Source: Caproicibacterium lactatifermentans
GTDB taxonomy: Bacteria > Bacillota > Clostridia > Oscillospirales > Acutalibacteraceae
Direction: 5' to 3'
NCBI RefSeq assembly: GCF_013315815.1
Contig: NZ_CP046051.1
Location: 124,001 to 188,000, forward strand
DNA length: 64,000 bases
Part shown: positions 16,077 to 30,656 of the stretch, one piece after another
Numbering within the stretch: the first letter of the stretch is position 1
Layout of the letters: every line of letters starts with the position of its first letter
Program-made: the position numbers and the translations under genes
The notes under the pieces: model-generated
The model's database searches: none
Seen by the model: the letters and a program-made list of their open reading frames with translations, nothing else
Told to the model about the DNA's origin: nothing

Positions 16077-17720
16077 GTGGTCATAGTGAGCAAACAAGGA
16101 AAACCAAAGTCGCTGTTTAAAAAATATCTGCGAATGACGCTGCTGACTATTTTGGTCAGCTTTACGATTCTGGGACTGGTTATGCTGCTGTTTTTCAACA
16201 GCAACTGGAAGCATGAAAAACGTGCGGCCCTGACCAAAAATGCCACCAGTGTGGCGGACATGGTCACCCACGGCACAGCGCCGGACAGCTCCGGCGGCAC
16301 AAAAATTGACAGGGAAGCACTGGAACAGTTCCTGCCGGCTTTGTGCCGCATCAATTCCAGCGATATTCTGATTACAGACAATAAGGGAAATATTATGGTA
16401 TCCGGACAAGGCGTAGACGGAACGATTAATGTCAGCAGACAGGTACCAAAAGACATCATGAAACGGGCACTGGCGGGCAGTTATGATGACGAAACGCTGC
16501 TGGGCGGTATTTACGCAATGCCGTACTATGTGATAGGCATGCCGGTAAAAGCGAATGCTTCCAGCGGCGGACAGACGATTGGCGCGGTTTTCGCCAGTGT
16601 GGCGGTGCACAGCCTGACGGAATACCGCAAGGATATTTTCCGGATGTTTCTGTTTGCAGCGTGCGCGGCTTTTGCCGTGGGATTCTGTATGGTCTGGGTA
16701 TTTTCCTACAATATGGTGCGCCCGCTTCGGATGATGGCGGACGCGGCCAGAAGCTTTGGGGAAGGAAACTTTTCCAAACGGGTGCCGGTTACCAGCCGCG
16801 ACGAAATAGGCGAATTGGCAGTTGCCTTTAACCACATGGCAGAGTCACTGGCAACCAGCGAGTATACCCGCCGAAACTTTATCGCCAATGTTTCCCACGA
16901 ACTAAAGACGCCGATGACAACCATTGCCGGCTTTATTGACGGCATTCTGGACGGAACTATTCCGCCGGAAAAGCAGAAGCATTATCTGCGGATTGTTTCA
17001 CAGGAAGTAAAGCGCCTATCCCGGCTGGTACATACCATGCTGGACCTTTCCCACATCGACAACGGTGAACTGAAGCTGCACCCAGCACGTTTTGACATTA
17101 CCAATACCGTGCTGACGACAATGCTCAACTTTGAAAAACAGATTGAATCAAAAAGAATTGAAGTACAGGGACTGGACGAAACGCACCCGGCTTTTGTGGA
17201 TGGCGACCCGGACCTGCTGCACCAAGTTATTTACAATCTGGTAGAAAACGCAGTTAAATTTACAAATCCCGGTGGCTATATTCGCGTCAATGTTCGGGAA
17301 GAGTCCGCACGCACAACCGTGACGATTCGCAACAGCGGCGAAGGAATTGCGTCGGAGGAATTGGGGCAGATTTTTGGCCGCTTCTATAAAACAGACAAAT
17401 CCCGCAGCAAGGACCGCGCTGGAATGGGATTGGGGCTTTACATTGTGCGTACCATTGTACAGCAGCACGGCGGTGAGATTACCGCTCGCTCTGAATTAGG
17501 CAAGTACAGTGAGTTTTCCTTCTGGCTGCCAAGAGAAATTCCGCAGCAGGGGGAGAAGCTGCCGACGACAACTGTATGTGCGCAGGTAGTAGAGCCGTCC
17601 CGACAAGCTTACCAGAAAGGGAAGAACGCCAAGCCCGCGCCGGAAAATAAGAAAAAAGAAAACAGCGATTCTGCTTCTGATGCTCCAAAAGAAAAGGACG
17701 GTAAAGATGGAACAAAATAA
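16077..17720 (+). CDS. Membrane sensor histidine kinase
   Basis: The 547-residue product has membrane helices at about 20-43 and 189-211 enclosing an extracytoplasmic sensor of about 145 residues. HAMP follows (about 212-262), then HisKA with the phospho-accepting H274 in FIANVSHELKTP, then the ATPase domain with N box (VIYNLVENAVKFTN) and GMGLGLYIV. A charged low-complexity tail of about 65 residues follows the kinase core, rich in Lys, Pro and Glu. The GTG start follows AGGGAAAG. Its last 14 bases overlap the htrA start, so the two are translationally coupled. The signal is unknown; misfolded exported protein is a reasonable guess. Confidence 0.92.
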   Translation: MVIVSKQGKPKSLFKKYLRMTLLTILVSFTILGLVMLLFFNSNWKHEKRAALTKNATSVADMVTHGTAPDSSGGTKIDREALEQFLPALCRINSSDILITDNKGNIMVSGQGVDGTINVSRQVPKDIMKRALAGSYDDETLLGGIYAMPYYVIGMPVKANASSGGQTIGAVFASVAVHSLTEYRKDIFRMFLFAACAAFAVGFCMVWVFSYNMVRPLRMMADAARSFGEGNFSKRVPVTSRDEIGELAVAFNHMAESLATSEYTRRNFIANVSHELKTPMTTIAGFIDGILDGTIPPEKQKHYLRIVSQEVKRLSRLVHTMLDLSHIDNGELKLHPARFDITNTVLTTMLNFEKQIESKRIEVQGLDETHPAFVDGDPDLLHQVIYNLVENAVKFTNPGGYIRVNVREESARTTVTIRNSGEGIASEELGQIFGRFYKTDKSRSKDRAGMGLGLYIVRTIVQQHGGEITARSELGKYSEFSFWLPREIPQQGEKLPTTTVCAQVVEPSRQAYQKGKNAKPAPENKKKENSDSASDAPKEKDGKDGTK

Positions 17721-19152
17721 ACAGCCGCAGTCCGAAAACAACGGACAGCAGCCATATCGTCCGGAAATTTGGTATCCTGCCGGCTGTCCGCAAAAGGAGA
17801 AGCCTGATGCAGGAAAGACACAGGAGGACGCTCCAGTGCCACCGCAGGGAAACGGCCCTGCCTATCGAAATCCGGCAACAGGCGCCCCACAGCAGGGCGG
17901 CTTTGTGCCGCCCTGCCCGCCGCCGTATCTGCCGGTCGGCGGCGGTTACCGCCCGCACCGGCCGATGAACAACGGCACGCGGGTGCTTATCGCCATTCTT
18001 TCGGTACTGCTGGCGATATTTGTCACGCTGTTTGCTGTGACTTTTTCAAACCAAAAGACTTCCGAAGCGGGGCAGGACAGTTCTTCCTCTTCTTCTCAGC
18101 CGAAGGAAACCGAAAGCAGTTCCCGCGCTTTCAATACCGTTCCTAATGACGGAAAGGGCACAGGCAGCAGTATCATTATCCAGGAAAAAAGCGGTGCGGT
18201 AATGTCTGCACAGAACGTTTTCAGCAAGATTAGCCCTAGCGTTGTGGGCGTGCTGACAAAGCTGCCTGATGAGGACGGCAATGAAAGCGACAGCCAGGGA
18301 ACCGGCATCATCGCCAGCAGCGACGGCGTTATCCTAACCAACGCGCATGTCATAGGATACAGTCCCAGCGCGGACGTGAATGTAGTACTGCCGGGCAAAA
18401 AAGTTGAATATAAGGCTCGCATTCTGGGCTTTGACAAGACGAGTGACCTTGCCGTCCTGAAGATTAGCGCAACCGGACTGATGCCTGCCCAGTTTGGCAG
18501 CGAAAACGAACTGCAGGTTGGTGAGCAAGTCATTGCCATTGGCAACCCGAGCGGAATGGACTACAGCAACAGCCTGACCGGCGGCTATGTTTCTGCACTG
18601 GACCGCACCATCGCCGGCCACAGCGGAAACGGCATGACATATATCCAGACGGACGCGGCAATTAACCCCGGGAATTCCGGTGGACCGCTGTGCAACCTGT
18701 ATGGGCAGGTTGTGGGAATTAACTCCTGCAAAATAGTAAGCACCGGCTACGAGGGCATGGGGTTTGCCATTCCGGTCAGCAAAGCCAGCACGATTATTAA
18801 CCAGCTGATTCATACCGGTTATGTGCCGGGCCGTACGCGTATCGGCATTACCTGCGCCCCAGTGTCCCAGCTGGAGATGCAGATGAAAGGCATACCAAAC
18901 GGCCTGCAGATTTTTTCAATCGACAAAGACAGTCCACTGTATCATAATGGAGTAGAAAAGGGCGATATCCTGTGTGAGTTTGACGGCAAAGATGTGACGA
19001 CTACGGATGAGCTGCTAGGGCAGATGACCAGTTACAAGCCGGGAGACAAAGTACGGGTAAAAATTTATTCGGTCAGTCAGCGGAAAATGCTGACGAAGAC
19101 CGTTGCACTGCTGGAGGATAAGGGCGAAAGTTCGTCCTCCGCGGCAAAATAA
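17707..19152 (+). CDS. HtrA/DegP-like membrane-anchored serine protease with PDZ domain
   Basis: Surface quality-control protease. The 481-residue product has a cytoplasmic Pro/Gln-rich N terminus (1-90), one membrane helix (92-113) and a Ser-rich linker. The trypsin-like domain has triad H214 (TNAHV), D248 (SDLAVLK) and S324 (GNSGGP). One C-terminal PDZ domain covers about 380-475. ATG 17707 lies inside the end of the kinase gene and is preceded by AAAGGACGG; upstream in-frame starts are less supported. It is the third gene of the two-component operon, suggesting the kinase controls its own protease effector. Confidence 0.93.
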   Translation: MEQNKQPQSENNGQQPYRPEIWYPAGCPQKEKPDAGKTQEDAPVPPQGNGPAYRNPATGAPQQGGFVPPCPPPYLPVGGGYRPHRPMNNGTRVLIAILSVLLAIFVTLFAVTFSNQKTSEAGQDSSSSSSQPKETESSSRAFNTVPNDGKGTGSSIIIQEKSGAVMSAQNVFSKISPSVVGVLTKLPDEDGNESDSQGTGIIASSDGVILTNAHVIGYSPSADVNVVLPGKKVEYKARILGFDKTSDLAVLKISATGLMPAQFGSENELQVGEQVIAIGNPSGMDYSNSLTGGYVSALDRTIAGHSGNGMTYIQTDAAINPGNSGGPLCNLYGQVVGINSCKIVSTGYEGMGFAIPVSKASTIINQLIHTGYVPGRTRIGITCAPVSQLEMQMKGIPNGLQIFSIDKDSPLYHNGVEKGDILCEFDGKDVTTTDELLGQMTSYKPGDKVRVKIYSVSQRKMLTKTVALLEDKGESSSSAAK

Positions 19153-19153
19153 C

Positions 19154-19193
19154 AAAAAGCACTGTCTGCTTGTTAAACAGACAGTGCTTTTTT
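19154..19193 (+). terminator. Terminator after htrA
   Basis: Fifteen-base arms around CACTGTCTG / CAGACAGTG, 9-base loop, T6. Confidence 0.92.
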
Positions 19194-19200
19194 AATGGAA

Positions 19201-19285
19201 CGGTTCTCTGCATTTATTTGCGGAGAGCCGCTTTTTTATCCTTTTTTAAAAAGTTCTATAAAAAATTCGCCTAAAACGGCGAATT
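19201..19285 (+). terminator. Second terminator-like hairpin and a short palindrome ahead of locus A
   Basis: A second stem (19201-19211 with 19220-19230, two G-U pairs) is followed by T6. Then AATTCGCC / GGCGAATT forms a hairpin at 19264-19285. The only promoter-like string is TATAAA at 19257 with no -35 at proper distance. Locus A is therefore insulated from htrA and has no obvious vegetative promoter. Confidence 0.6.
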
Positions 19286-19350
19286 CCATCTGCGTTTGGC
19301 CGGAGGGGTGCAGGGACAACCTGCAAAACCAAAAAGAGAGGAGCAAACAC

Positions 19351-19665
19351 ATGGATACACAAAAAGAAGCACTGCGTGTCTGCCGAAAGCTGGCCCGCGG
19401 GAAGGTGAATGACGCGGTACGGCTGTTGTTTTTTCCACCGGAGGCCAGCGACCTGCAAAATTTGGATTTGTCGTGTGTGGAAGAAATAAAACGCAGCGAC
19501 AAAGGCAGTGTGGAAATCAAATTTGCCGACCGGCTGAAAGCCGCGCAAATGATGGCGGAACTGGGCGGTGGCGAAAACATGCAGCCTTTGTACAGCGCAC
19601 TGAACCAGTCAGCACAGGCAGTGCGGGAGGAGGGCGGACCGAGCGGAAGGGATGCGCTTCAGTAA
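19351..19665 (+). CDS. Phage terminase small subunit-like protein
   Basis: The 104-residue product contains CRKLARGKVNDAVRLLF, then VEEIKRSDKGSVEIKFADRLKAAQMMAEL. This resembles small terminase proteins found beside PBSX-type large terminases in clostridial prophages, which bind DNA at the packaging start. I chose ATG 19351 for its GAGAGGAG site; the frame is open upstream through hairpins that cannot be coding. Its stop overlaps the large terminase start by 14 bases. The assignment rests on position and motif, not a clear DNA-binding fold. Confidence 0.7.
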   Translation: MDTQKEALRVCRKLARGKVNDAVRLLFFPPEASDLQNLDLSCVEEIKRSDKGSVEIKFADRLKAAQMMAELGGGENMQPLYSALNQSAQAVREEGGPSGRDALQ

Positions 19666-20899
19666 ACAGCAGCTGCGGGCCATGAGCTGGTGGTGTCCCG
19701 GCAGCGGTGACGAACAGAAGGACGCCGTTATTTGTGACGGAGCAGTGCGCAGCGGCAAAACGCTGTGCATGGGGCTGGGCTTTGTGTGCTGGGCAATGGC
19801 ATGCTTTTCAGACAAGAGCTTTGCACTGTGCGGAAAAACCGTGCGTTCTTTAAAACGGAACCTTGTTACGACACTGCTTCCGGCACTGTCGGCTGCCGGT
19901 TTCGAATACACCGTAAAAGGGAGCGAAAACCTGCTGATGGTTTCCGCCGGACAGCTGAAGAATCGTTTCTATCTGTTCGGCGGACGGGACAGCAGCAGCG
20001 CCGCGCTGATACAAGGAATTACTTTGGCGGGTGTGCTGTTTGACGAGGCGGCGCTGCTGCCGCGGGAGTTTGTCCAGCAGGCACTGGCACGGTGCAGTGT
20101 TGAGGGTAGCCGCTTTTGGTTTAACTGCAATCCAGAGGGACCGCAGCACTGGTTTTACACGGAATGGATACAGAAGGCGGCGGAAAAGAATGCGCTGTAC
20201 CTGCACTTTACCATGGAGGACAACCCCTCTCTTTCCCCGCGGATGCGTGCCCGCTACCGGAATTTGTATACCGGAACTTTTTACGAACGGTACATTTTGG
20301 GCCGCTGGGCCGCGGCGGAAGGACTCATCTATCCATTTATGACGGACAAAATGGCTGCGGACAATCCCAAAACCTGTACGGAGTATGTAGTGAGTTGTGA
20401 TTATGGCACAAAAAACCCCAGTTCCTTTGGATTATGGGGCAAAAACGGTGGCTGTTGGTATCGACTGTCAGAATATTACTATGACGGGCGGCAGCACAGC
20501 CCGCGGACAGACGAAGAACATTACTGCGCGCTGGAAAAGATTTGCCGCGGATACAGAATTCGCTGTGTAGTTGTGGACCCCTCGGCGGCAAGTTTTATGG
20601 AGACCATCCGCAGGCATGGCAGGTTTCCGGTACTGCCGGCAAAAAATGAGGTGCTGCAGGGAATTCGCCGCACGGGATTGGCACTAAAAGAGGGCCGCAT
20701 TCGCATCTGCCACGGCTGCCGGGACACTTGGCGGGAATTTTCGCTGTACCGCTGGCAGGACGGTAAAGAAGAACCGCTGAAGGAGAATGACCATGCCATG
20801 GACGACATTCGGTACTTCGTTTCTACGGTTCTGCGGCAGGAGAGCGGTGGCTTTGCGGCGGCGGCCGTTCCGCGGAAAGAGAGGAAAGAAAAAAGTTGA
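19652..20899 (+). CDS. Phage terminase large subunit (PBSX family)
   Basis: DNA-packaging ATPase and nuclease. Walker A GAVRSGKT lies at residues 30-37 and Walker B with catalytic Glu (VLFDEAALLP) near 128-136. The C-terminal RNase H-like nuclease retains acidic motifs VSCDYGTKNPS and VVVDPSAAS. The 415-residue length is normal for the PBSX family. Both ATPase and nuclease motifs look intact, so the protein could still package DNA. The stop overlaps the TTG start of the portal gene (TTGA). Confidence 0.92.
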   Translation: MRFSKQQLRAMSWWCPGSGDEQKDAVICDGAVRSGKTLCMGLGFVCWAMACFSDKSFALCGKTVRSLKRNLVTTLLPALSAAGFEYTVKGSENLLMVSAGQLKNRFYLFGGRDSSSAALIQGITLAGVLFDEAALLPREFVQQALARCSVEGSRFWFNCNPEGPQHWFYTEWIQKAAEKNALYLHFTMEDNPSLSPRMRARYRNLYTGTFYERYILGRWAAAEGLIYPFMTDKMAADNPKTCTEYVVSCDYGTKNPSSFGLWGKNGGCWYRLSEYYYDGRQHSPRTDEEHYCALEKICRGYRIRCVVVDPSAASFMETIRRHGRFPVLPAKNEVLQGIRRTGLALKEGRIRICHGCRDTWREFSLYRWQDGKEEPLKENDHAMDDIRYFVSTVLRQESGGFAAAAVPRKERKEKS

Positions 20900-22053
20900 T
20901 ACGAAAAAAGAGAGGGAAAAAGGTATCGGCAGGTACGCTGGCTATACAGACTGGCGGACAGGATCTGCCGTTTTCAGCGGTACAGCGGTATGTGCCGCTG
21001 TCCAGCGGAGAATTGGGATTGTATTGGAAGCTGCGGCAGGCGGTGCCGGTTATTGACGCAGCCATTGATAAGCTGGTGAGGCTGGTGGGAAAGTTCCGCA
21101 TTGTCTGTGCCGGAGAGGATACACGGCTGGAATTGGAACAGTTCCTCAGAACCGTGCCGGTGGGGACCGGCGGGGCCGGTATTACAGCCTTTTTGGACTG
21201 CTATTTGGACCAGCTGCTGACCTGCGGCAATGCGGTAGGGGAGGCCGTGGTGCAGGGCGGAGAGCTTCGGGCACTGTACAATGCTTCTTTGCAGGACGTA
21301 GAGCTGCGGGCAAAGTCACCGGTGGAAATAGAAGTGCGTCGCCGGTGTGTCGGCGGCAGCCGGCCGGTGCCGTACCCGGAGCTTGTCTTTCATACAGCGC
21401 TGAACCCACTGCCGGGAAGCGCCAAAGGCAGGAGCATTCTGCAGGGGCTTCCTTTTGTAACCAACATTTTAGTTACGATTTTCCACACCATCGGTGTCAA
21501 CTGGGAACGCGTAGGGAACGTACGGTTTGCCGTTACCTGCACCCCAAATGAGGACGACCGCGCCTTTGCTGCGGAACACGCGGAGCAAATGGCACAGGAG
21601 TGGAGCCGTGCCATGCGGCCGGACAGCAGAAGCGACTTTGTTGCGGTCGGTGATGTACATATTCAGGCAATCGGTGCGGACAACCAGGTGCTGGACAGTG
21701 CGGTACCGGTGCGGCAGATGTTGGAGCAGATTGTGGCGAAATTAGGGCTGCCGCCGTTTCTGCTGGGGCTAACGTGGTCGAGCACTGAGCGCATGAGCGG
21801 CCAGCAGGCGGATATTTTGACCAGTGAACTGGAAGCGTACCGCCGTCTGCTGAATCCAATTATCCGCCGCATTTGTACGCTGTGGCTGCAGCTTTCCGGC
21901 AGGGGAAATGTGCCGTTCCAGATTGAGTGGAACGATGTAACGCTGCAGGACGCAACCGAACTTGCCACAGCGGCCCTGACACGCGCCCAGACAGAACTGA
22001 CCAAGATGCAGACAAGAAAACTGCGGCGGGAGCTGCAGGGAAAGGGAGAATGA
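20896..22053 (+). CDS. Phage portal protein
   Basis: Twelve-subunit ring at one capsid vertex through which DNA passes. The 385-residue product begins at TTG 20896, coupled to the terminase stop and preceded by a GAGAGGAAAG purine stretch. Recognisable portal features are the N-terminal YWKLRQAVPVIDAAIDKLV segment and LPPFLLGLTWSSTERMSGQQADILTSELEAYRR, typical of the wing/stem region of clostridial portals. A basic C-terminal tail ends it. It lies between terminase and protease, as in tailed phages. Confidence 0.87.
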   Translation: MIRKKRGKKVSAGTLAIQTGGQDLPFSAVQRYVPLSSGELGLYWKLRQAVPVIDAAIDKLVRLVGKFRIVCAGEDTRLELEQFLRTVPVGTGGAGITAFLDCYLDQLLTCGNAVGEAVVQGGELRALYNASLQDVELRAKSPVEIEVRRRCVGGSRPVPYPELVFHTALNPLPGSAKGRSILQGLPFVTNILVTIFHTIGVNWERVGNVRFAVTCTPNEDDRAFAAEHAEQMAQEWSRAMRPDSRSDFVAVGDVHIQAIGADNQVLDSAVPVRQMLEQIVAKLGLPPFLLGLTWSSTERMSGQQADILTSELEAYRRLLNPIIRRICTLWLQLSGRGNVPFQIEWNDVTLQDATELATAALTRAQTELTKMQTRKLRRELQGKGE

Positions 22054-22056
22054 TAA

Positions 22057-22929
22057 ATGCAGAACGGATATGTGCTGAAAAGTGTGCAGGCACCGGAAAA
22101 AGAGGATCTGCAGAAAATTAACCAGTACACACGAAGGCCGTTTTCTAAGGAGGAAGTGTACACCTTTGGGCTGGTGCTGTGCGACAACGAAATCGACCGT
22201 GACGGCGAACGCTTTTCCGTATCGGCCTTGTATGGGCTTGCTGGCCTTTTCCTGGGGAAAAGCGGGCTGTTTAACCACAGCATGGATGCACGAACACAAA
22301 GCGCACGCATTTACGACACCAGTGTGGAAACAGACACCAGCCGAAAAACAGCGGCGGGGGAACCGTACAGCCGCCTGACCGCAAAGGCGTATATGCCGCG
22401 CACCAAAGGCAACGAGGACTTGATTTTGGAAATAGACAGCGGCATTAAAAAAGAAGTGAGCGTTGGCTGTGCCATGGGCAGTGCAGTGTGCTCCGTATGT
22501 GGGGCAGACCGCCGAAAACACCCCTGTGGGCATCAAAAAGGCGGAAAATATCAGGGAAAGGTTTGCTGTACCATTTTGAGCGACCCGAAAGACGCTTATG
22601 AATGGAGCTTTGTCGCAGTACCGGCACAGCGGGCTGCCGGTGTTACCAAAAGCTATCCGCCAGCGGCGGAAGAAAGCGAGGACGCCGCCGAATGGGGACG
22701 GCGCTGGAAAGAACACCTGACAGAGGAAACGACCCGTTATTTTTCACTGGCGTGCCCGGGCGTGCCGGCCGCATCGGCTAAGAAGATGACGGAGAGCCTG
22801 TCGCCGGAGGAACTGGAACAGGTGGAAAAGGTCCTGTCCCATGCGGCAAACCGGCGCCTGCCGCTGCAGGTACAGCTGGCCCCGGAACGGACAGCCGCAC
22901 CGGATGAGAACAACGATTTCCGCATTTAA
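22057..22929 (+). CDS. Putative capsid maturation protease with zinc-knuckle insertion
   Basis: It lies in the prohead protease slot between portal and decoration/capsid genes. The 290-residue product has candidate catalytic H74 (FNHSMDA) and S135 (EVSVGCAMG), the spacing and context of herpesvirus-type S78-like proteases. Directly after the Ser is a C145-xx-C148-x6-H155-x-C157-x-H159 cluster, which looks like a small zinc site and is unusual in this family. A helical charged C terminus (about 205-290) could act as an internal scaffold. The family assignment is inferred from position and the two motifs. Confidence 0.65.
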   Translation: MQNGYVLKSVQAPEKEDLQKINQYTRRPFSKEEVYTFGLVLCDNEIDRDGERFSVSALYGLAGLFLGKSGLFNHSMDARTQSARIYDTSVETDTSRKTAAGEPYSRLTAKAYMPRTKGNEDLILEIDSGIKKEVSVGCAMGSAVCSVCGADRRKHPCGHQKGGKYQGKVCCTILSDPKDAYEWSFVAVPAQRAAGVTKSYPPAAEESEDAAEWGRRWKEHLTEETTRYFSLACPGVPAASAKKMTESLSPEELEQVEKVLSHAANRRLPLQVQLAPERTAAPDENNDFRI

Positions 22930-22954
22930 GGAACAAGATATTTAGGAGGAAAAA

Positions 22955-23287
22955 ATGGAAACTTCAATGAATGGATATGGAGAAAACGCAGCGACTTTTC
23001 TTTGCAAGACACAGCTGACGCCGGGTACACCGGTGATGGTGACGGCAAACGGCACCGTGTCCGCGGCAAGTGGAAATTTCTGTGGCGTGGTGCTGTCGTG
23101 GCGCGACGGTGTGGCGGCCGTGCAGATGGAGGGCTATGTACAGCTGCCCTACAGCGGGGCAAAACCTGCGCTGGGGTATCAGACTCTGACCGCGGCAAAT
23201 GGAAAAGTGGCGGTTTCCACAGCGGACGGCGGCGTTCAGCGGCTGGTCGTGGACACTGACAGTACAACAATCGGTCTGCTTCTGTAA
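22955..23287 (+). CDS. Capsid decoration-like protein
   Basis: The 110-residue product is Ala/Gly/Val/Thr-rich and all beta in character. It contains TPGTPVMVTANGTVSAASG and GYVQLPYSG, similar to small head-stabilising or DUF2190-like proteins coded just before the major capsid gene. ATG 22955 follows TAGGAGG. No signal peptide or membrane segment is present. The call rests on position, size and composition. Confidence 0.6.
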   Translation: METSMNGYGENAATFLCKTQLTPGTPVMVTANGTVSAASGNFCGVVLSWRDGVAAVQMEGYVQLPYSGAKPALGYQTLTAANGKVAVSTADGGVQRLVVDTDSTTIGLLL

Positions 23288-23300
23288 GGAGGGCATTTAT

Positions 23301-24305
23301 ATGGCATTTTATGAAAATTTACATTTGGACAAGGGCATGTACGGCACCGGAAAATCCTTTACACAGGTGCTGGAGGGACTGGATAGTTCTGAAAATTACC
23401 GTGGAACACCGCTGGAGGACCTAGACGCGTATCAGCGGCAGCTGAAGCGCTTTGACATTCATGTAAGTGGCGCGGGCAGTGACCGTGTGGAAAAGTTCTT
23501 CCAGACGGGAGACAGCGCTGCCCTGTTCCCAGAGTATATCTGCCGTGCGGTACGGCAGGGCATGGAGCAGGAGAATCTGCTGCCCCGGCTGGTGGCTACG
23601 GTGACAAACGTAGAAGGAATGGACTACCGCACCATTGTCAGTGCGCCGCTGGAAGAGGAAAAGAAACTGAAAACGGTAGCCGAAGGCGCCGCGATTCCAC
23701 AGACAGTCGTGCGCACACAGGACCATTTGGTGCAGCTGCATAAGCGCGGCCGCATGCTGGTGGCAAGCTACGAAGCACTGCGCTTTCAGCATTTGGACTT
23801 GTTTACCGTTACGCTGCGGCAGATTGGTGCGTATATTGTGCGCGCACAGATGGGCGACGCGGTGCAGGTCCTGCTGAACGGCGACGACGGAACCGATAAA
23901 GCCGAAGAGATTTCCGGTGAAGCGCTTTCTTATGACAGCCTTTTAAAGCTGTGGGGCAAACTTTCACCTTATCGTATGAATGTGCTGCTGGGCGGTACGG
24001 CCGCTGTACAGAAAGTGCTGGGCCTTGCGGAAATGCGTGACGCACAGGCGGGCCTAAACTTCCAGGGGACAGGCAAGATGGTTTCGCCCATGGGTGCGGA
24101 ACTGCTGCATGTGCCGGATGTACCGGACGGCAAACTGCTGGGACTGGACCACACCTGTGCATTGGAAATGGTGCAAGCAGGCGGTGTACAGACCGAGTAT
24201 GACAAGCTGATAGACCGTCAGCTGGAACGTGCGACCATCAGCACGATTGCAGGATTTACAAAAATTTTCAACGGTGCTGTCAAAATGCTGGATTATACGG
24301 ACTAA
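23301..24305 (+). CDS. Major capsid protein (HK97-like)
   Basis: The 334-residue product starts at ATG 23301 with AAGGAGGG upstream; an upstream in-frame ATG at 23199 lies inside the decoration gene. The sequence resembles HK97-fold capsid proteins: a short N-terminal arm, a LFPEYICRAVRQGM helix, an E-loop-like region (EEEKKLKTVAEGAAIP), and a C-terminal P/A-domain (LLGGTAAVQKVLG, AGFTKIFNGAVKMLDY). It lacks a long cleavable scaffold at its own N terminus. Assembly into a real shell seems possible since the frame is intact. Confidence 0.82.
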   Translation: MAFYENLHLDKGMYGTGKSFTQVLEGLDSSENYRGTPLEDLDAYQRQLKRFDIHVSGAGSDRVEKFFQTGDSAALFPEYICRAVRQGMEQENLLPRLVATVTNVEGMDYRTIVSAPLEEEKKLKTVAEGAAIPQTVVRTQDHLVQLHKRGRMLVASYEALRFQHLDLFTVTLRQIGAYIVRAQMGDAVQVLLNGDDGTDKAEEISGEALSYDSLLKLWGKLSPYRMNVLLGGTAAVQKVLGLAEMRDAQAGLNFQGTGKMVSPMGAELLHVPDVPDGKLLGLDHTCALEMVQAGGVQTEYDKLIDRQLERATISTIAGFTKIFNGAVKMLDYTD

Positions 24306-24371
24306 AGCAGGAACAGAACTGGGCGGGTGGGTTTGGAAAGTCTGTTTTTGCAGATGGAAAAGGAGAGAAAC

Positions 24372-24707
24372 ATGGAAACAGACAATATCTTAAATAAGCT
24401 GCAGCTTCTGCACGGCTTGCAGGCGGACGAAGCAGAGAAATACCGGCCGCTGGCACAGGAAGCGGTGGACCGGCTGGAGAACTGCCGCCGAAAAGATGGG
24501 GGCGATTCCCTGCTGGAAACTGCCGCTGCCGCACTGGTGCATTTGCAGCTTACCCTGACGGAACCGGCAGGCAGCTTCACGGCCGGAGATGTGCACGGCG
24601 ACAACACACAGGAACGTGCAGCGGCAAAAGAACTTTGGAAGGAGTCACTGGCGGCCGCCGCGCCGTACCTGCGTGATGAGCGTTTCATTTTCAGGAGCGT
24701 GCCATGA
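24372..24707 (+). CDS. Head-tail connector-like protein
   Basis: The 111-residue product is mostly helical (METDNILNKLQLLHGLQADE; YRPLAQEAVDRLENCRR) and sits directly after the capsid gene, where gp6-type connectors are coded. ATG 24372 follows AAAAGGAGAG. Its stop overlaps the next start (ATGA). In related phages this protein forms a ring under the portal. Assigned by position and helical character. Confidence 0.6.
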   Translation: METDNILNKLQLLHGLQADEAEKYRPLAQEAVDRLENCRRKDGGDSLLETAAAALVHLQLTLTEPAGSFTAGDVHGDNTQERAAAKELWKESLAAAAPYLRDERFIFRSVP

Positions 24708-24991
24708 CGCGGGCCGCGTTTGTTGCGCAGATGCTGGAACGATACGGTGAGGAGGCCGTGTGCGGTGGTCAGAAAGCGCCAGTCGTTCTGCGGTCGCTGC
24801 GTCCGAACGATTTGCAGGACAGCCGCAGCATCTGTACAGCTCCGGCGGAATTTTGCCCGCGGGAGGGCACAAAACTGTCTTGTGGGGGCCGGCTGTATAC
24901 CGTACTGCGCTGCGGTGGTCGGTACCTGAAAAACCGGCGGCTGTACACATGGGCCGTGCTGCAGCAGGAAGGAGAGGAAGACTGTGAATGA
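24704..24991 (+). CDS. Head completion or joining-like protein
   Basis: The 95-residue product overlaps the previous gene by four bases (ATGA). It has a helical start (MTRAAFVAQMLERYGEE) followed by a beta-rich part with four Cys. The size and place match a second connector or head-closure protein. In PBSX-type phages three or four neck genes and then sheath and tube follow here; in this locus the neck stops and the baseplate genes begin. Confidence 0.5.
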   Translation: MTRAAFVAQMLERYGEEAVCGGQKAPVVLRSLRPNDLQDSRSICTAPAEFCPREGTKLSCGGRLYTVLRCGGRYLKNRRLYTWAVLQQEGEEDCE

Positions 24992-25085
24992 GGAACTTCT
25001 GACACCGCAGGAAAAACTGAGCGAGGAACTGGAAATGCAGTATCTGCGCTATCCGCGGCCCCCACAGGAGGAGAGCGGAACATGA
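24984..25085 (+). CDS. 33-residue protein at the head/baseplate junction
   Basis: GTG 24984 to TGA 25085, with GGAAGGAGAGGAAG upstream. It overlaps the preceding stop and the following ATG (ATGA). The product begins VNEELLTPQEKLSEELEMQY and ends with a Pro/Arg segment. It is short, charged and probably helical. Overlaps on both sides argue that it is translated. It stands exactly where sheath, tube and tape-measure genes would normally be. Confidence 0.55.
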   Translation: MNEELLTPQEKLSEELEMQYLRYPRPPQEESGT

Positions 25086-25594
25086 AACAGCTTTTTATGG
25101 CGTACAAGGATTTTACATGGCCGCGTCTGCCGGACAGCCTGCAGATGCAGAACCAGAAATATGTGGATGTCCTGCCACAGCCGGAAAGCGGGGAAACCCT
25201 GCAGGAACTGGGGCAGCATGGACGCGTGGTGTCCGGCAGCGGCGTATTTGTTGGCGAGGAGGCAGAGCAGGAGTGGGAAGCGCTGTGTGCCTGCTATGCT
25301 GGGGGAGGTTCCGGAACACTGTATTTGCCGGGCAGAAAGCCGGTGCAGGCGATTTTTGCGGAACTTTCGCTGCAGCAGCCGCTGCGCCGGACTTACATTG
25401 TGTATCGATTCCTTTTTCAGGAACTGCTGCCGCAGGCAAAACAGCCGGGAGTGTACACAGCCAAAACAGGTGACTGCCTGTGGAGCGCGGCCACGGCAGC
25501 CGGTACAACGCCGGAAGAACTGCTGCAGGCGAACCCTGGGCACATTCGATGGGCCAATGAGCTGACGGCTGGACAAAAGCTGGTGGTGCCGTGA
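25082..25594 (+). CDS. LysM-containing baseplate protein (XkdP-like)
   Basis: The 170-residue product has an N-terminal part resembling gpU/XkdP-type proteins (YKDFTWPRLPDSLQMQNQ, VVSGSGVFVGEEAEQEW). The C-terminal LysM motif at about 123-169 reads VYTAKTGDCLWSAATAAGTT, ending LTAGQKLVV. LysM domains bind peptidoglycan; in contractile phages this protein bridges the tape-measure end and the hub. A four-base overlap follows the 33-residue gene, and the next gene overlaps its stop (GTGA). Confidence 0.78.
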   Translation: MKQLFMAYKDFTWPRLPDSLQMQNQKYVDVLPQPESGETLQELGQHGRVVSGSGVFVGEEAEQEWEALCACYAGGGSGTLYLPGRKPVQAIFAELSLQQPLRRTYIVYRFLFQELLPQAKQPGVYTAKTGDCLWSAATAAGTTPEELLQANPGHIRWANELTAGQKLVVP

Positions 25595-26463
25595 ACGGCA
25601 TTCTGTATGATGCGGACGGCGGACAGCAGATACTGGCATCGCCTGTGAAAGTAACCCTGCAAAGAAGTGTGAGCGCACCGGCCGATGTTTTGGAGGCGGT
25701 CTTTCCGCTGACGGGGCCCGTGCGGCCGGCTGCCTTTTTCCGGATGGCGGCGGCGGGCAAGGTCCTGTTTGACGGGCCGGTGGACACCATGCGGGAAACA
25801 GACGGCAGGCTTTTGCACCTTTCGGTGCGCAGCAGGGCGGCGCTGCTGCTGGACAGCCAGGCACTACCGGGAACATGGCTGCACCCGGGGCTGCGGAATT
25901 TGTTCCAAACCTGCGCTGTACCATACGGATTCACACAAATCGTGGGCGATATGCGTGTATTTGACACACCGTATACCATTGATTCCAACAAAAGCGAATG
26001 GCAGGCACTGGACACGTTCTGTCAGTCATTTTTGGGGACAGCTCTGTGGGAGGAAAACGGCGTTCTACGCGCGGAACAGCCCACTTTTTCAGAACCGGCG
26101 GTGTTGGGAAAATCGGGTATTCCGTATCTAAAAGTGTGCCGCACTTGGCAGATGTATCGGCAGCTTTCGGAGGTGTGGGGCATCCGCAGCGGCGAACTGG
26201 AGAATTGTATACAGGATTCGGCAGTTCGGCAGACGGGTATTCTGCGCAGGCGCATCAGTGCTGCACCTGAGGCAGCACTGCAGGAAGCATGTGGACAGGT
26301 GCAGACAACATCGGTCTTGTGCGTGGGCTGGCAGCCGGTGAAGCTGTGGCAGCCAGCGGTACTTTGGCTGCCGCAGGAGACACTGCAGCTGCAGGTTAAA
26401 CAAATTTTGTACCAGCTGAGTACAGAAGGCAAAACAACGCGCCTGTTGCTGCAAAACGGATAA
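25591..26463 (+). CDS. Baseplate hub protein (XkdQ/gpD-like)
   Basis: The 290-residue product fits the hub slot between the LysM protein and the spike. Its N-terminal beta domain (VKVTLQRSVSAPADVLEAVFPL) and the middle YTIDSNKSEWQALDTFCQSF segment resemble gpD/gp27-type hubs that trimerise around the spike. The GTG start overlaps the previous stop. It is somewhat shorter than the roughly 320-350 residues of PBSX XkdQ. No catalytic motif is evident. Confidence 0.7.
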   Translation: MNGILYDADGGQQILASPVKVTLQRSVSAPADVLEAVFPLTGPVRPAAFFRMAAAGKVLFDGPVDTMRETDGRLLHLSVRSRAALLLDSQALPGTWLHPGLRNLFQTCAVPYGFTQIVGDMRVFDTPYTIDSNKSEWQALDTFCQSFLGTALWEENGVLRAEQPTFSEPAVLGKSGIPYLKVCRTWQMYRQLSEVWGIRSGELENCIQDSAVRQTGILRRRISAAPEAALQEACGQVQTTSVLCVGWQPVKLWQPAVLWLPQETLQLQVKQILYQLSTEGKTTRLLLQNG

Positions 26464-26484
26464 AAACGGGAGGCAGCGAAATAG

Positions 26485-26820
26485 ATGTGGATTGTAGACC
26501 GGCTGCTGCAGGAAAACCGCGGCAGCAGCACCAAGACAGGCATGATTACCGGAGAAAGCAGTGCCCAAACAGCGGTTTCCGATGAAAAGGTGCAGATGTG
26601 CGGGCCGTGGGGAGTTCAGTGGTGCGCACCCGCGGGCAGCAAAGCAGTGCTGCTGAAAACAGACAGCGGCACCATGTGTTTGGGAACCGCCGGAAATACA
26701 GATGATTTAAAGCCGGGAGAACTGCGGCTGGTGTCGCAGGGTGGAGCGGAGGTTTACCTGACAGCGAGCGGAGAGGTTGTGATTAACGGCCAGACCTTTG
26801 CGGCGAAGGAGGAGAAGTAA
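26485..26820 (+). CDS. Baseplate spike-like protein (gpV/gp45-like)
   Basis: The 111-residue product is beta-rich, with an OB-fold-like core (VQMCGPWGVQWCAPAGSKAV) and a C-terminal repetitive beta part (LVSQGGAEVYLTASGEVVIN). This matches the short Mu gp45/P2 gpV type of membrane-piercing spike. It lacks an apical HxH iron-binding tip that I can see. It is downstream of the hub and upstream of gp25-like, as in contractile baseplates. Confidence 0.65.
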   Translation: MWIVDRLLQENRGSSTKTGMITGESSAQTAVSDEKVQMCGPWGVQWCAPAGSKAVLLKTDSGTMCLGTAGNTDDLKPGELRLVSQGGAEVYLTASGEVVINGQTFAAKEEK

Positions 26821-27159
26821 GTGGAAAATCGGCTGGAAAACGGGGATTATGTTCTTTCACCGGGCGGTGTGCTGGAAACTGTGGACAAAGAGGAGGCACA
26901 GCTGCAGGGTGCCGCAAGACGGCTGCTGATACAGCGGGGAAGCTTTGTGTATGCACCGGACTTTGGCTGCCGGACATTTTCTGCGGAACAGGCGGCGGCG
27001 CCCGGCGCTGAACAGAAGGCGGTGCTGCTTGTCCAAGAGGCACTGGCACCGCTGGCGGGGAAGGTCCTGCTGCAGAGGGTACATTTGGAGGAAACAGGAA
27101 CGTCAGTTCAGCTGCGCGCAGGCAGTATGGAAAAAACAGTTTTGGTGCCATATGCGTAA
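26821..27159 (+). CDS. Baseplate wedge protein, gp25/XkdS-like
   Basis: The 112-residue product starts at GTG 26821, one base after the previous stop, with GGAGGAGAAG upstream. The sequence DKEEAQLQGAARRLLIQRGSFVYAPDFGC matches the gp25/GPW lysozyme-like wedge family. The family's conserved Arg-rich helix and the Y/F-x-P-xFG turn are visible. In contractile tails gp25 nucleates the sheath; no sheath gene is present here. Confidence 0.75.
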   Translation: MENRLENGDYVLSPGGVLETVDKEEAQLQGAARRLLIQRGSFVYAPDFGCRTFSAEQAAAPGAEQKAVLLVQEALAPLAGKVLLQRVHLEETGTSVQLRAGSMEKTVLVPYA

Positions 27160-27170
27160 GGGGTGAAAGA

Positions 27171-28238
27171 ATGATTTCGTATGAAGAATTGGTACAGAAG
27201 ATGGAGAACACATATCAGGAGAAGACCGGTATTCAGCCGACGGCAGACAGTGACACGGGGGTGTGCTTTCGGGTATTGGCGGGCGAATTGTACAGCTTGT
27301 CGGCCAATGTTGAGTGGCTGAAGGCATCTCTTCTGCCGCAGACTGCTGCGGGTGAACAGCTGGACAAACTGGCACAGCAGGCGGGACTTTCCCGTACGCC
27401 TGCGGCAAAGGCACAGGGAACGCTTCGCTTTACCAAAACGGCGAAAAGCACGATTTTCACAGTAATTCTTTCAGCGGGAACACGCTGTACGACCGGCGGA
27501 AGCCATCCCGTCGTTTTTGAAACACTGGAACAAGTGGAGCTGGACTGTGGCCCAAGCTCGGTGGCGGAGGTCCCTGTCCGCGCGGTCAAAGACGGGGAAG
27601 AAGGGAACGTCTTAGCTGGGACGGTAACACAGCTGGAGAAAAGCAATGCTTATATTGAGGCTGTCACCAATCCAGCGGCCTTTTCCGGCGGGCGGACGGA
27701 AGAAACCGATGACCAGCTGCGGAAACGTCTGATGGAAGAAGAAAAGCAGACGGATAACGGCGCAAATTCCGCTTTTTACAGGAAGACAGCACTGCAGCAG
27801 CCAGGAGTCAGCAGCGTTTTTGTACAGACAGCTGTTCCGGAAAAAGGCGGGGTGACGATTTGGCTTGCCAGCCGGGGTGCATCCGTGACAAATGACACAG
27901 CGGCAAAGGTGAAAGCTGCGCTGGAACAGATGCGTGGACTGAATGTGCAGATAAAAGTTTATCCGGCAAAAACTACGCCGGTTCAGCTGACAGTACAAGT
28001 GAAAAAGAAAGAAGGACAGACGGACGAAGACACCAAAACGGCTGTCCAGCAGGCAATGAAGGACAGTTTTGACGAACTGAAAATCGGACAGACCATGACG
28101 GCGGCTCGGCTGATGGCGGCTATTATGCAGACCGGATGCGCGGAAGATGTTCTGCTGCCAACGAATTTGGTGTTTCCGACTGCGGCTCCGGATACACTGG
28201 TGACGCTGAACGCCGCATCGGAGGTGGTGTTGCTGTGA
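27171..28238 (+). CDS. Baseplate J-like protein (XkdT)
   Basis: The 355-residue product begins MISYEELVQKM and contains the J-family core: PQTAAGEQLDKLAQQAGLSR, EVPVRAVKDGEEGNVLAGTV, and GGRTEETDDQLRKRLMEEE. Gp6/J proteins form the inner baseplate iris that closes on the hub. Length agrees with XkdT. The stop overlaps the next GTG (GTGA). It is the clearest baseplate assignment in the locus. Confidence 0.9.
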   Translation: MISYEELVQKMENTYQEKTGIQPTADSDTGVCFRVLAGELYSLSANVEWLKASLLPQTAAGEQLDKLAQQAGLSRTPAAKAQGTLRFTKTAKSTIFTVILSAGTRCTTGGSHPVVFETLEQVELDCGPSSVAEVPVRAVKDGEEGNVLAGTVTQLEKSNAYIEAVTNPAAFSGGRTEETDDQLRKRLMEEEKQTDNGANSAFYRKTALQQPGVSSVFVQTAVPEKGGVTIWLASRGASVTNDTAAKVKAALEQMRGLNVQIKVYPAKTTPVQLTVQVKKKEGQTDEDTKTAVQQAMKDSFDELKIGQTMTAARLMAAIMQTGCAEDVLLPTNLVFPTAAPDTLVTLNAASEVVLL

Positions 28239-28801
28239 AACCGCTTGACAGTATGCGCCGCCGTCTGCAGCCAATGGGTGCCTATGACCTGCAGAAGGAA
28301 AACAGCTTTGCGGCGGCAAAGCTGGAGGCTTTTGCCGCCGGGCTGGATTCCGTTTATGATATGTTGAACGAAATAGAACAAGAGGCCTTTCTTGTCAGTG
28401 CACAGAGCTGGGGATTTTCCGGTGTTTGTTCCCTGCTGGGAATTGTGGACGGAGGAGATCTGCGTCGGGCAGTTGGTCTGTTTCTGTGCAGCCCAGCGGC
28501 GAAAACTTGTACACGGGCGTCTTTTCAGCGTTTGCAGCAGGCACTGGGAATTGCCGGTCCACTGTATGAATGCCCAGCGGACGAGAAAGTGATTTTTTGT
28601 CCGGAAACGCTGCCGGAAGACCGCGCGTTTGTTGTACGTGTGCTGCGCCGAATGCTGCCGGCACAGCTGCAGGGGGAACTGGACCTGAGCGGTGCAGATG
28701 CCACATGGAAGGCACTGGACAGCGGCGGTGCTTCCTGGAAGCAGCAGGATGCCAAAAACCGTACGTGGAAAACATGGGACGGGGAGAGAGTAATATTTTA
28801 G
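28235..28801 (+). CDS. Baseplate/tail protein I-like (XkdU)
   Basis: The 188-residue product starts at GTG 28235, overlapping the J stop. DUF2313-like proteins follow J in PBSX and P2 and contribute to the baseplate periphery. Here residues 20-60 (ENSFAAAKLEAFAAGLDSVYDMLNEIEQEAF) and the C-terminal RAFVVRVLRRMLPAQLQGEL segment are consistent with that. A Trp-rich tail ends it. An upstream in-frame ATG at 28136 lies inside the J gene. Confidence 0.75.
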   Translation: MKPLDSMRRRLQPMGAYDLQKENSFAAAKLEAFAAGLDSVYDMLNEIEQEAFLVSAQSWGFSGVCSLLGIVDGGDLRRAVGLFLCSPAAKTCTRASFQRLQQALGIAGPLYECPADEKVIFCPETLPEDRAFVVRVLRRMLPAQLQGELDLSGADATWKALDSGGASWKQQDAKNRTWKTWDGERVIF

Positions 28802-28871
28802 AGTGCTTTTATAAGCAGATATTAACAGATTAGTTTTTTAAGCACAGGTAAAACTAGAGGAGGAGAATAGA

Positions 28872-29315
28872 ATGCCATCCAGCAGCAAAACAGCCCACGG
28901 GCTTAATCTTTGGAGTGCGGAAGACCATCCGCAGCGAACGGATTTTGTAAGTGATAACCAAAAAATTGATGACCTTTTTTCACAGCATATCGCGGATACG
29001 GCCCTGCACAAGACGGCCAGCGACAAAACGTCGCTGACCATGGGGACCTATAAAGGAAACAACGAGGATATGCAGCTTGTTTCGCTGCCCTTTGCCCCGC
29101 AGGTGCTCTTGATTTATCCGCAGAACCAAAGTCCGATTCAGAAGGACGCGGCTGGAAATTTGGTTCTATACACGGGAGCAGTCGGCGGGTTTGTGTACGG
29201 TGACGGTGTATATCTGCAGGGCAGCGGCTTTGCCGTGCAGAACGACGATACGGACAGTGTGTATACCAAACTAAACGAGAAGGGAAAAACGTACCGCTAT
29301 ATTGCGTTCCGCTGA
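28872..29315 (+). CDS. Fibre-like terminal protein of locus A
   Basis: The 147-residue product has an N-terminal NLWSAEDHPQRTDFVSDNQKI segment, similar to the start of phage fibre proteins that attach to the baseplate. A short beta-rich C terminus follows (VGGFVYGDGVYLQGSGFAV). A receptor-binding domain of usual size is absent; typical fibres are several hundred residues. ATG 28872 follows GGAGGAG. It is the last gene before hflX; no holin, amidase or tail assembly chaperone follows. Confidence 0.6.
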   Translation: MPSSSKTAHGLNLWSAEDHPQRTDFVSDNQKIDDLFSQHIADTALHKTASDKTSLTMGTYKGNNEDMQLVSLPFAPQVLLIYPQNQSPIQKDAAGNLVLYTGAVGGFVYGDGVYLQGSGFAVQNDDTDSVYTKLNEKGKTYRYIAFR

Positions 29316-29396: not shown

Positions 29397-30656
29397 ATGT
29401 ATGAAAATAAGCGGGAGCTGCCACGGGCCCTGCTGGTGGAGTGTGACACCGGAGAGGATGACGCAGAGTCTTCGCTGGCAGAGCTGTACGAACTGGTGCG
29501 CAGCGCGGGTGCTGTCCCTTTTGGGGCAATGACGCAGAAACGCCCGTCCGCGGACGCTGCGACCTGTGTAGGAAAAGGCATGGTGCAGCAGATTGCGGAT
29601 TTTTGCGAAAAACACCACATAGAACTGCTCATTTTTGACCGAGAGCTAACGCCTACCCAGATACGAAATCTAGAGGAAGACACAAGCGTGCGGGTAGTGG
29701 ACCGTACCATGTTGATAATGGACATTTTTGCCTGCAGTGCCCGCAGCAGAGAGGGTAAGCTGCAGGTGGAGCTTGCACAGCTGGAATACCTGCTGCCGAG
29801 GCTTTCTGGAAGAGGAACGGCACTGTCACGTTTGGGCGGCGGCATTGGTACACGAGGCCCCGGTGAAACCAAACTGGAAACCGACCGCCGTCATATCCGT
29901 GGCCGTATCCGTTCCCTGCAGGTACAGCTGGAAGAAGTGGAGAAACACCGGCAGCAGATAGAACGCCGCCGGCGAAAAGACGGTGTAGTCACAGCGGCAC
30001 TGGTGGGATATACCAACGCCGGGAAAAGCACACTGATGAATGCGCTGACAGACGCGGGTGTGCTGGCGGAGGACCGCCTTTTCGCTACGCTGGACCCAAC
30101 AGCCCGGGCGCTGCGCCTGCCAAATGGATTTTCTGTTATGCTGATAGACACCGTCGGGCTGGTGCGCCGACTGCCGCATCAGTTGGTAAAGGCGTTTCGG
30201 TCTACGCTGGAGCAGGCCGCGCAGGCGGATATCCTTTTAAACGTCTGTGATGCTTCCAGCCCAGAAGCACAGACACACCTGAAGGTGACCAGCGACCTGC
30301 TGACAGGACTGGGCTGTACAGGGAAAATGCTGCCGGTGCTTAACAAATGTGACCAAGTGCCGGGGCTGACAGGCCTGCCGCAGATAGGGCAGGGCATACG
30401 CATCAGTGCCAAAACAGGGGAGGGCATTCCGAATCTGCTGCAGGCAATACAGGATGCGCTGCCGGTACAGGTGCGCCGTGTGCAGCTGCTGCTGCCATTT
30501 TCACAGAGCGGACTTGCCGCTCGTGTGCGGGAGCAGGGAACAGTGCTGCAGGAGAAATATACATCGGAGGGACTGGCGCTGGAAGCTTTTGTCGGGCCGG
30601 CACTTTTCCCCGCGGTACAGCCATTCCTGCAAACGAACAGCATCACAAAAGCCTAA
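29397..30656 (+). CDS. hflX: GTPase HflX
   Basis: Ribosome-splitting GTPase active in heat and antibiotic stress. The N-terminal HflX domain (about 1-190) includes VGKGMVQQI and RLGGGIGTRGPGETKLETDRR. The G domain has G1 GYTNAGKS, G3 DTVGLV and G4 NKCD. The 419-residue length is normal. ATG 29397 follows GCGGGAGG. It stands alone, between locus A and a poorly coding interval. Confidence 0.95.
   Translation: MYENKRELPRALLVECDTGEDDAESSLAELYELVRSAGAVPFGAMTQKRPSADAATCVGKGMVQQIADFCEKHHIELLIFDRELTPTQIRNLEEDTSVRVVDRTMLIMDIFACSARSREGKLQVELAQLEYLLPRLSGRGTALSRLGGGIGTRGPGETKLETDRRHIRGRIRSLQVQLEEVEKHRQQIERRRRKDGVVTAALVGYTNAGKSTLMNALTDAGVLAEDRLFATLDPTARALRLPNGFSVMLIDTVGLVRRLPHQLVKAFRSTLEQAAQADILLNVCDASSPEAQTHLKVTSDLLTGLGCTGKMLPVLNKCDQVPGLTGLPQIGQGIRISAKTGEGIPNLLQAIQDALPVQVRRVQLLLPFSQSGLAARVREQGTVLQEKYTSEGLALEAFVGPALFPAVQPFLQTNSITKA

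Follow-up and report, generated by a model that had tools for sequence, protein, structure and literature searches.

A tail-reduced phage-like locus of Caproicibacterium lactatifermentans is probably a domesticated gene-transfer-agent-like element

Why should a bacterium keep a phage head, its packaging machinery and a baseplate with no recognisable tail between them? The question is posed by a locus in the chromosome of Caproicibacterium lactatifermentans, at positions 19351-29315 (+ strand) of the 64,000-nucleotide stretch analysed here (the window; NZ_CP046051.1, positions 124,001 to 188,000). Sixteen intact open reading frames (ORFs), overlapping or separated by small gaps, lie there between htrA and hflX in the order small terminase (TerS), large terminase (TerL), portal, XkdF-like protease, decoration-like protein, capsid, connectors 1 and 2, a 33-residue peptide, LysM protein, hub, spike-position protein, gp25-like protein, Baseplate_J protein, gpI-position protein and fibre. 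Head, packaging and neck genes are complete, and ORF reading and family matches agree with the original prediction that all sixteen frames are open and many overlap; none of the sixteen was recognised as coding for a sheath, tube or tape measure or for lysis, integration or replication. We consider it probable that the locus is a domesticated, vertically inherited element resembling a gene transfer agent (GTA), its tail reduced to a baseplate seated on the neck. Judging from its genes, the locus is likely to make DNA-packing particles, and it is plausible that these transfer genes.

The gap between the connectors and the LysM protein recurs in all nine host-genus loci that span the interval (L029-L034 and L036-L038; L035 is cut), and the nearest genera, Caproiciproducens and Caproicibacter, have no sheath and retain no more than a tube domain joined to connector 2 (the fusion in L039 matches phrog_27038 at 3e-19). 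A recent deletion, which a full tail block in close relatives would have indicated, was rejected on these grounds. The whole-genome search proposed in the original prediction also placed no sheath or tube elsewhere: in the source genome, a single contig of 1,989,979 bases, the sheath family PF04984 had no match (three of 14 control genomes were matched), and the tube family phrog_27038 had none in seven host-genus genomes including the source, a model that matched the sister-genus genome G035 but none of the 14 controls. The pairing of a gp25-like protein with no sheath, flagged earlier as odd, was found again: the protein encoded at 26821..27159 (+), a homologue of baseplate wedge and sheath-initiator proteins, matches Sheath_initiator (PF10934) at 3.6e-04, under the Pfam cut-off, and phrog_120 at 7.1e-05, and no sheath was matched.

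Nor is the locus a peculiarity of one strain. Of 60 relatives, 28 carry a single copy of the capsid gene: 11 of 11 from the host genus, 16 of 26 others of the family and one of 23 from other families. An even sample of the order yielded it in 71 of 394 genomes, including 35 of 43 within the family, with a single match in 69 of the 71, two matches in one and two fragments in another; the genome with two near-full-length matches (G341) is the sole such case and carries them on different contigs. Across the class, matches were found in 11 of 391 genomes, eight inside the order and three weaker ones outside. GTDB contigs hold at least 557 relatives, of which the best 80 were taken, including Caproiciproducens, Caproicibacter, Anaeromassilibacillus, Faecalispora and metagenome-assembled genomes named Ruminococcus. 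Frames are open in all 27 relative loci read (capsid 333-408, portal 374-507 and TerL 406-491 residues, counted from the first possible start), and gene order is conserved. Core-gene distances follow those of RpoB over 25 genomes (Mantel r 0.875; none of 2000 permutations was as high, and none exceeded 0.371), and the two trees are largely congruent, agreeing at the well-supported forks around the source genome. The gene hflX lies downstream in other genera too (L039, L057-L062, L077, L079, L089 and L100); in L077 and L089 the 10 kb upstream showed no htrA, and because a gene read by eye as DegV-like intervenes in L029, L031-L033 and L036, htrA and terS are not always neighbours. Elsewhere among the relatives the locus occupies other chromosomal places, its place being only partly common across genera. 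Like a GTA, then, the locus is embedded in the host, vertically inherited and without recognised replication or integration genes, and we regard its retention as a host function as almost certain.

GTAs are further marked by purifying selection on their structural genes, and such selection was found here in the fifteen of the sixteen genes covered, the 33-residue peptide being left out. Among the pairs L036/L038, L036/L037 and L037/L038 (synonymous divergence, dS, 0.13-0.50), the ratio of nonsynonymous to synonymous divergence (dN/dS) was 0.000-0.246 over the fifteen genes and 0.005-0.014 for the capsid, some frames in these loci being called with early starts that overlap their neighbours. 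The flanks, in the one pair having both, gave 0.034 for hflX and 0.081 for htrA at similar dS. Compared with L030, the source locus showed values of 0.06-0.40 at near-saturated dS. Ratios were likewise low in other tail states: 0.015-0.181 for all genes of the baseplate-less pair L127/L130, 0.045-0.295 for the full-tailed pair L180/L182 and 0.006-0.215 for the pairs L070/L072 and L173/L178, which have a tube without a sheath. The least favourable values came from L029/L137, taken up below, and from L111/L112, where the decoration-like gene reached 0.32 and several genes were saturated. The original prediction had offered a gene-transfer-agent-like device among its readings and had named a recent deletion, a dN/dS near 1 and confinement to a single strain as findings that would speak against its proposal; the ratios lie far below 1 in the informative pairs, and all three tests came out in its favour.

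In the terminase, across 145 aligned TerL frames (380 residues, the source included), Walker A, the DE of Walker B and aspartates 250, 309 and 384 are kept in 143-145, which bears out the earlier impression of intact ATPase and nuclease motifs; Asp 385 is kept in 138, with Glu in six. The TerL gene of the source locus (19652..20899, +) matches PF03237 at 7.6e-15 and phrog_2 at 3.5e-47. Loss of the N-terminal DNA-binding domain of TerS has been proposed as the basis of random packaging and a mark of GTAs (PMC6854486). The TerS of the source locus (19351..19665, +; 104 residues) lacks the N-terminal domain of most relatives, aligning only with positions 63-127 of the 141 in PF03592, under the cut-off. 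A model of that domain built from ten sheath-less relatives, which a very different domain could escape, matched none of the 13 no-tube loci (source included) and none of the six in which the tube is fused to connector 2. It matched 40 of 43, six of six, four of four and nine of nine in the other sheath-less groups, 9 of 11 and four of five among loci of unassigned tail state, and one of the three sheath loci with enough upstream sequence; L058, L061, L062 and L079 went unmatched despite frames of 137-207 residues. The GTA-like form of TerS is seen in the source and other no-tube loci and not in most other sheath-less members.

How the tail came to be missing is suggested by the relatives. The locus belongs to a large family found across the order, full-tailed loci among them. 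The states found are sheath plus tube; tube without sheath; no tube, as in the host genus; no baseplate, with the fibre fused to the neck protein; and head and neck only. In full-tailed relatives the sheath matches PF17482 (6.7e-16) and PF04984 (8.7e-14), and tubes match phrog_27038 (7e-63) and contractile-tube folds. These relatives (among them L180, L198, L206, L214, L217, L302, L303 and L306-L308) share homologous head, neck, LysM and hub proteins with the source locus, most also gp25, gpJ and gpI in mostly the same order; unlike it, they carry a sheath (340-355 residues in the four read) and a tube of 129-132 residues. Their flanks, too, were read by eye as housekeeping genes. The survey covered 187 loci, 39 of them cut or without an assigned state, its viral-contig and genome rows partly repeating one another; L114 and L193 were counted as showing no tube, but their neck proteins of 239 and 272 residues may hide a diverged tube domain. 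On an 80-row tree, from which loci of unassigned state were left out and for which 18 separate-tube loci and at most two of the cut group were taken, four tail states require 6 changes as against 36.6 in shuffles; the tree warns of long branches at L055 and at L043 with L184. L055 (G031), which has a short TerS and no tube and whose LysM gene immediately follows that of the neck protein, apparently lost the tube independently.

Reduction goes further than in the host genus. Twelve of the 187 loci have no baseplate and keep their head genes, and three of four such genomes tested have no Baseplate_J anywhere (one, G024, is 89% complete); L051, L111, L112, L119 and L216 consist of head and neck only, and L053 lacks even the neck protein, with TerS to capsid kept. 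A further observation concerns L216 (MT835508.1), deposited in GenBank as "Bacteriophage sp." from human faeces, which is a bacterial chromosome fragment with its locus beside rnf-like and ribosomal protein genes. Since the baseplate and then the fibre have been dropped in relatives, the selected core function appears to be DNA packaging in a capsid rather than contractile injection. A bolder extension, less likely than not, is that the family forms an order-wide GTA lineage, independent of FpGTA of Faecalibacterium and RcGTA of Rhodobacter capsulatus, in which selection kept the heads while the tail was taken apart stepwise (sheath first, then tube and tape measure, then baseplate, then fibre), with some members ending as bare capsids that would carry DNA between cells and leave its delivery to recipient uptake. 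Should the GTA-like reading of the locus be right, its family would join a very small number of GTA lineages outside Alphaproteobacteria. It extends over several families of Oscillospirales (an order assigned from named relatives), rumen and gut bacteria among them, and offers a natural series showing which phage parts a DNA carrier can spare.

The 33-residue peptide (24984..25085, +; with an RYP motif) may be a molecular fossil of that series. In loci with a sheath, a protein of 160-292 residues stands directly before LysM, and a C-terminal motif like F[EQ]RDxRRYDxGF was found in 18 of 23. Where only the tube remains, the frames bearing the motif have 25-53 residues in 12 loci and 67-152 in eight, the latter possibly called from early start codons; where the tube is gone too, the motif persists in seven of 16 loci, in frames of 30-46 residues, besides the 33 of the source locus. 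In L032 it is present in a longer frame. Position, motif and the shortening with tail state suggest that the peptide is the remnant of the protein in the tape-measure position.

If the locus acts as a GTA-like element, TerL would package host DNA by the headful, in short pieces and without selection, and the connectors would close the filled head. The LysM ring, with its tube fold, would rest on the neck itself, forming a "one-ring tail" to which hub, spike, wedges and fibre are attached. Release might depend on lysis genes encoded elsewhere or on spontaneous lysis, after which the particle would adsorb by its fibre and bind the wall by LysM. DNA could then be handed to the recipient, perhaps through its competence machinery, as described for RcGTA, whose recipients use ComEC and DprA (PMC10883770).

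Several points weigh against this reading. The locus is known here from its genes alone, and packaging and transfer are deduced from them. The capsid gene is absent from 8 of the 43 sampled family genomes. No gene devoted to lysis or regulation could be identified, and the genome's two holins lie in apparent mobile-element remnants. Loss of the TerS N-terminal domain is not tied to loss of the tail, since most other sheath-less relatives keep it and, by the same model, it is missing from two of the three sheath loci that could be tested. Between L029 and L137, a very close pair, dN/dS reached 0.57 for the hub, 0.55 for the fibre, 0.37 for LysM, 0.32 for the portal and 0.30 for gpI on few substitutions, and the spike (three) and gp25 (one) had only nonsynonymous changes. 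The link between peptide and tape measure rests on position and one short motif. Of 96 tube-only loci no more than 20 showed this motif, eight of them in the longer frames, and RYP is missing from the 33-residue frame of L036 and L038, which keeps ELEM..LR.

What else might such genes do? Their order follows that of PBSX (xkd), and the proteins of XkdF, XkdP, XkdQ, gp25 and gpJ type are shared with PBSX and phiCD508, the predicted structure of the LysM protein matching chains of the phiCD508, PVC and AFP baseplates over its full length. A PBSX-like, capsid-bearing antibacterial device, with particles that carry DNA but are selected for killing, or for damaging walls, through the LysM, hub, spike and fibre end, would accord with this and with a full baseplate whose LysM, hub and fibre are under purifying selection in the host genus; the same doubt has been raised for FpGTA (PMC12946183). 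Unlike PBSX-type systems, however, the source locus has no recognised sheath, tube, tape measure, lysis or regulatory gene, so that nothing is there to puncture with, and the baseplate-less relatives keep their heads; we judge such a device unlikely. A tailocin or extracellular contractile injection system would consist of a tail without capsid and terminase, and here capsid, portal and TerL are intact. Retention of TerS to capsid in the head-and-neck-only relatives implies that the tail is not needed for the selected function, which would also suit a host locus with head and terminase proteins put to a use unrelated to gene transfer, such as interference with the packaging of invading phages or DNA packaging in times of stress. 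The full packaging machinery, connectors and baseplate kept in the host genus speak against such a role, to which we give slightly less weight than to the antibacterial device. Head-only gene sets are typical of capsid-forming phage-inducible chromosomal islands, satellites that depend on a helper and borrow its tails. No integrase, primase or regulator was recognised among the sixteen genes, however, and the hflX-linked place over several genera, the congruence with RpoB and the locus's own baseplate and fibre make a satellite very improbable. The missing tail block would be expected of a decaying prophage remnant, a reading to which frames open over deep time, low dN/dS and family-wide vertical conservation leave almost no credence.

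A comparison with Faecalibacterium was made through genus g144, which we take to be Faecalibacterium on the basis of a 16S probe for that genus and a 16S stretch of Faecalibacterium type. The probe was found in 12 of 368 genomes of another family, nine of these belonging to g144 and the other three to three different genera, and in none of the 394 and 173 genomes of earlier samples; within g144 it occurs in nine of the 18 listed genomes, seven having six copies. The TerL profile of the locus matched one of those 18 genomes and its capsid profile none of the four in the order sample. FpGTA is reported to form 40 nm particles without identifiable tails that hold about 8.4-8.9 kb of host DNA, and its FpGTA I operon to be present in each of 12 Faecalibacterium genomes (Borodovich et al. 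2026, PMC12946183). Shared with the source locus are the bacterial order, a compact head and packaging operon (TerS, TerL, portal and capsid) and a TerS without DNA-binding domain, all of which, with the lack of visible tails, would be expected if the two were homologues. FpGTA differs in having its baseplate and lysis genes in a second operon, where the source locus has its baseplate in the same operon and no known lysis genes. Since all 12 genomes are reported to carry FpGTA I and one of 18 has a TerL relative, the two are probably separate domestications, as far as g144 may stand in for the FpGTA sequences themselves; homology with FpGTA I is improbable, a shade more so than a non-transfer role. 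FpGTA I sought by its published coordinates in eight g144 genomes gave no match to the locus-family profiles in any, and one operon at those coordinates (L323) matched no phage family in Pfam or PHROGs. RcGTA resembles the source locus in its head-tail cluster and in a TerS without the N-terminal DNA-binding domain (PMC6854486), but it has a tail where the source locus lacks sheath and tube; its chains appear only as tube-fold matches, and the likeness is otherwise functional. Literature searches produced no described system with exactly this gene set, as had been supposed at the outset, and among the papers listed only PMC12946183 was relevant. That study also reports GTA-like packaging in Ruminococcaceae other than Faecalibacterium, for instance 4.6 kb in Ruminococcus callidus, for which the present family may supply the loci.

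The remaining genes, all on the + strand, were assigned as follows. The portal (22053 as its last position, from TTG 20896 or a later in-frame start; 20896..22053) matches phrog_30703 at 1.5e-119. The putative XkdF-like head maturation protease (22057..22929), with a conserved Cys/His cluster and conserved EVSVGC and YEWSFVAVPAQ, matches phrog_16951, of unknown function, at 1e-93; PF14550 (XkdF) was weakly matched by three of 19 homologues and not by this protein. A capsid-associated, decoration-like protein (22955..23287; phrog_4588, virion structural, 1.9e-18) precedes the major capsid protein (23301..24305), identified by PF25209 (2.4e-13), phrog_3922 (2e-91) and alignment of homologues; profile searches with capsid and protease against PDB sequences gave nothing useful. 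Adaptor-like connector 1 (24327..24707), stopper-like connector 2 (24704..24991), the gpI or XkdU-position wedge protein (28235..28801) and the short fibre (28872..29315) had no convincing family match in Pfam and PHROGs and were assigned by position, conservation or alignment; in relatives without a baseplate it is the C-terminal domain of the fibre that is joined to the neck protein. The LysM protein (25082..25594), a tube initiator in the XkdP position, has a LysM match of 3.7e-08 and an AlphaFold predicted local distance difference test score of 91.7. The baseplate hub (25591..26463), like Mu gp44 and XkdQ, matches phrog_177 (1.5e-06) and, by profile, PDB entries 3d37 (3.9e-05) and 1wru (4e-04). 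The protein in the spike or XkdR position (26485..26820) matches phrog_25991, of unknown function, at 5e-08; it was aligned with its homologues, and its role was assigned from position only. The Baseplate_J wedge protein (27171..28238) matches PF04865 at 9e-39.

Of the host flanks, the upstream htrA-like trypsin/PDZ protease (17680..19152, +; PF13365 2.3e-33, with PDZ) is found in the host genus and in L058, L060-L062 and L079, and the downstream hflX GTPase (29397..30656, +; PF16360 2.4e-31) is syntenic. Two tandem hairpins resembling intrinsic terminators, with T runs, occupy 19154-19192 and 19201-19230 (+) in the gap between htrA and terS (RNA fold z -6.2 for 19140-19360), followed by an inverted repeat at 19265-19284 (ATTCGCC, six bases, GGCGAAT) that may be an operator or a further hairpin. 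A promoter scan of the locus stayed at chance level and a terminator scan slightly above it. The two PF05105 holins of the source genome (C1:211071 and C1:1471201), both outside the window, were rejected as parts of the locus, their neighbours by eye being serine recombinases and phage remnants. In the region around the former (L290, C1:206000-217000) the holin is accompanied by serine recombinases and a capsid-like frame. Other species have near copies (L292 and L294), and by eye the whole resembles a mobile element that species of the host genus have in common.

Two kinds of smaller relative were also seen. L299 and L300, from genus g71 of the same family as g144, are a very small version with TerS, TerL, portal, protease, capsid, connector, a protein of about 110 residues and hub, adjoining host genes that by eye resemble cobU and pilT; they are possible candidates for the short-fragment GTA packaging reported in Ruminococcus. 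L297 and L298, from outside the order, and L305 have only the capsid, decoration-like and protease genes in common with the family, a set that may mark an ancestral phage module.

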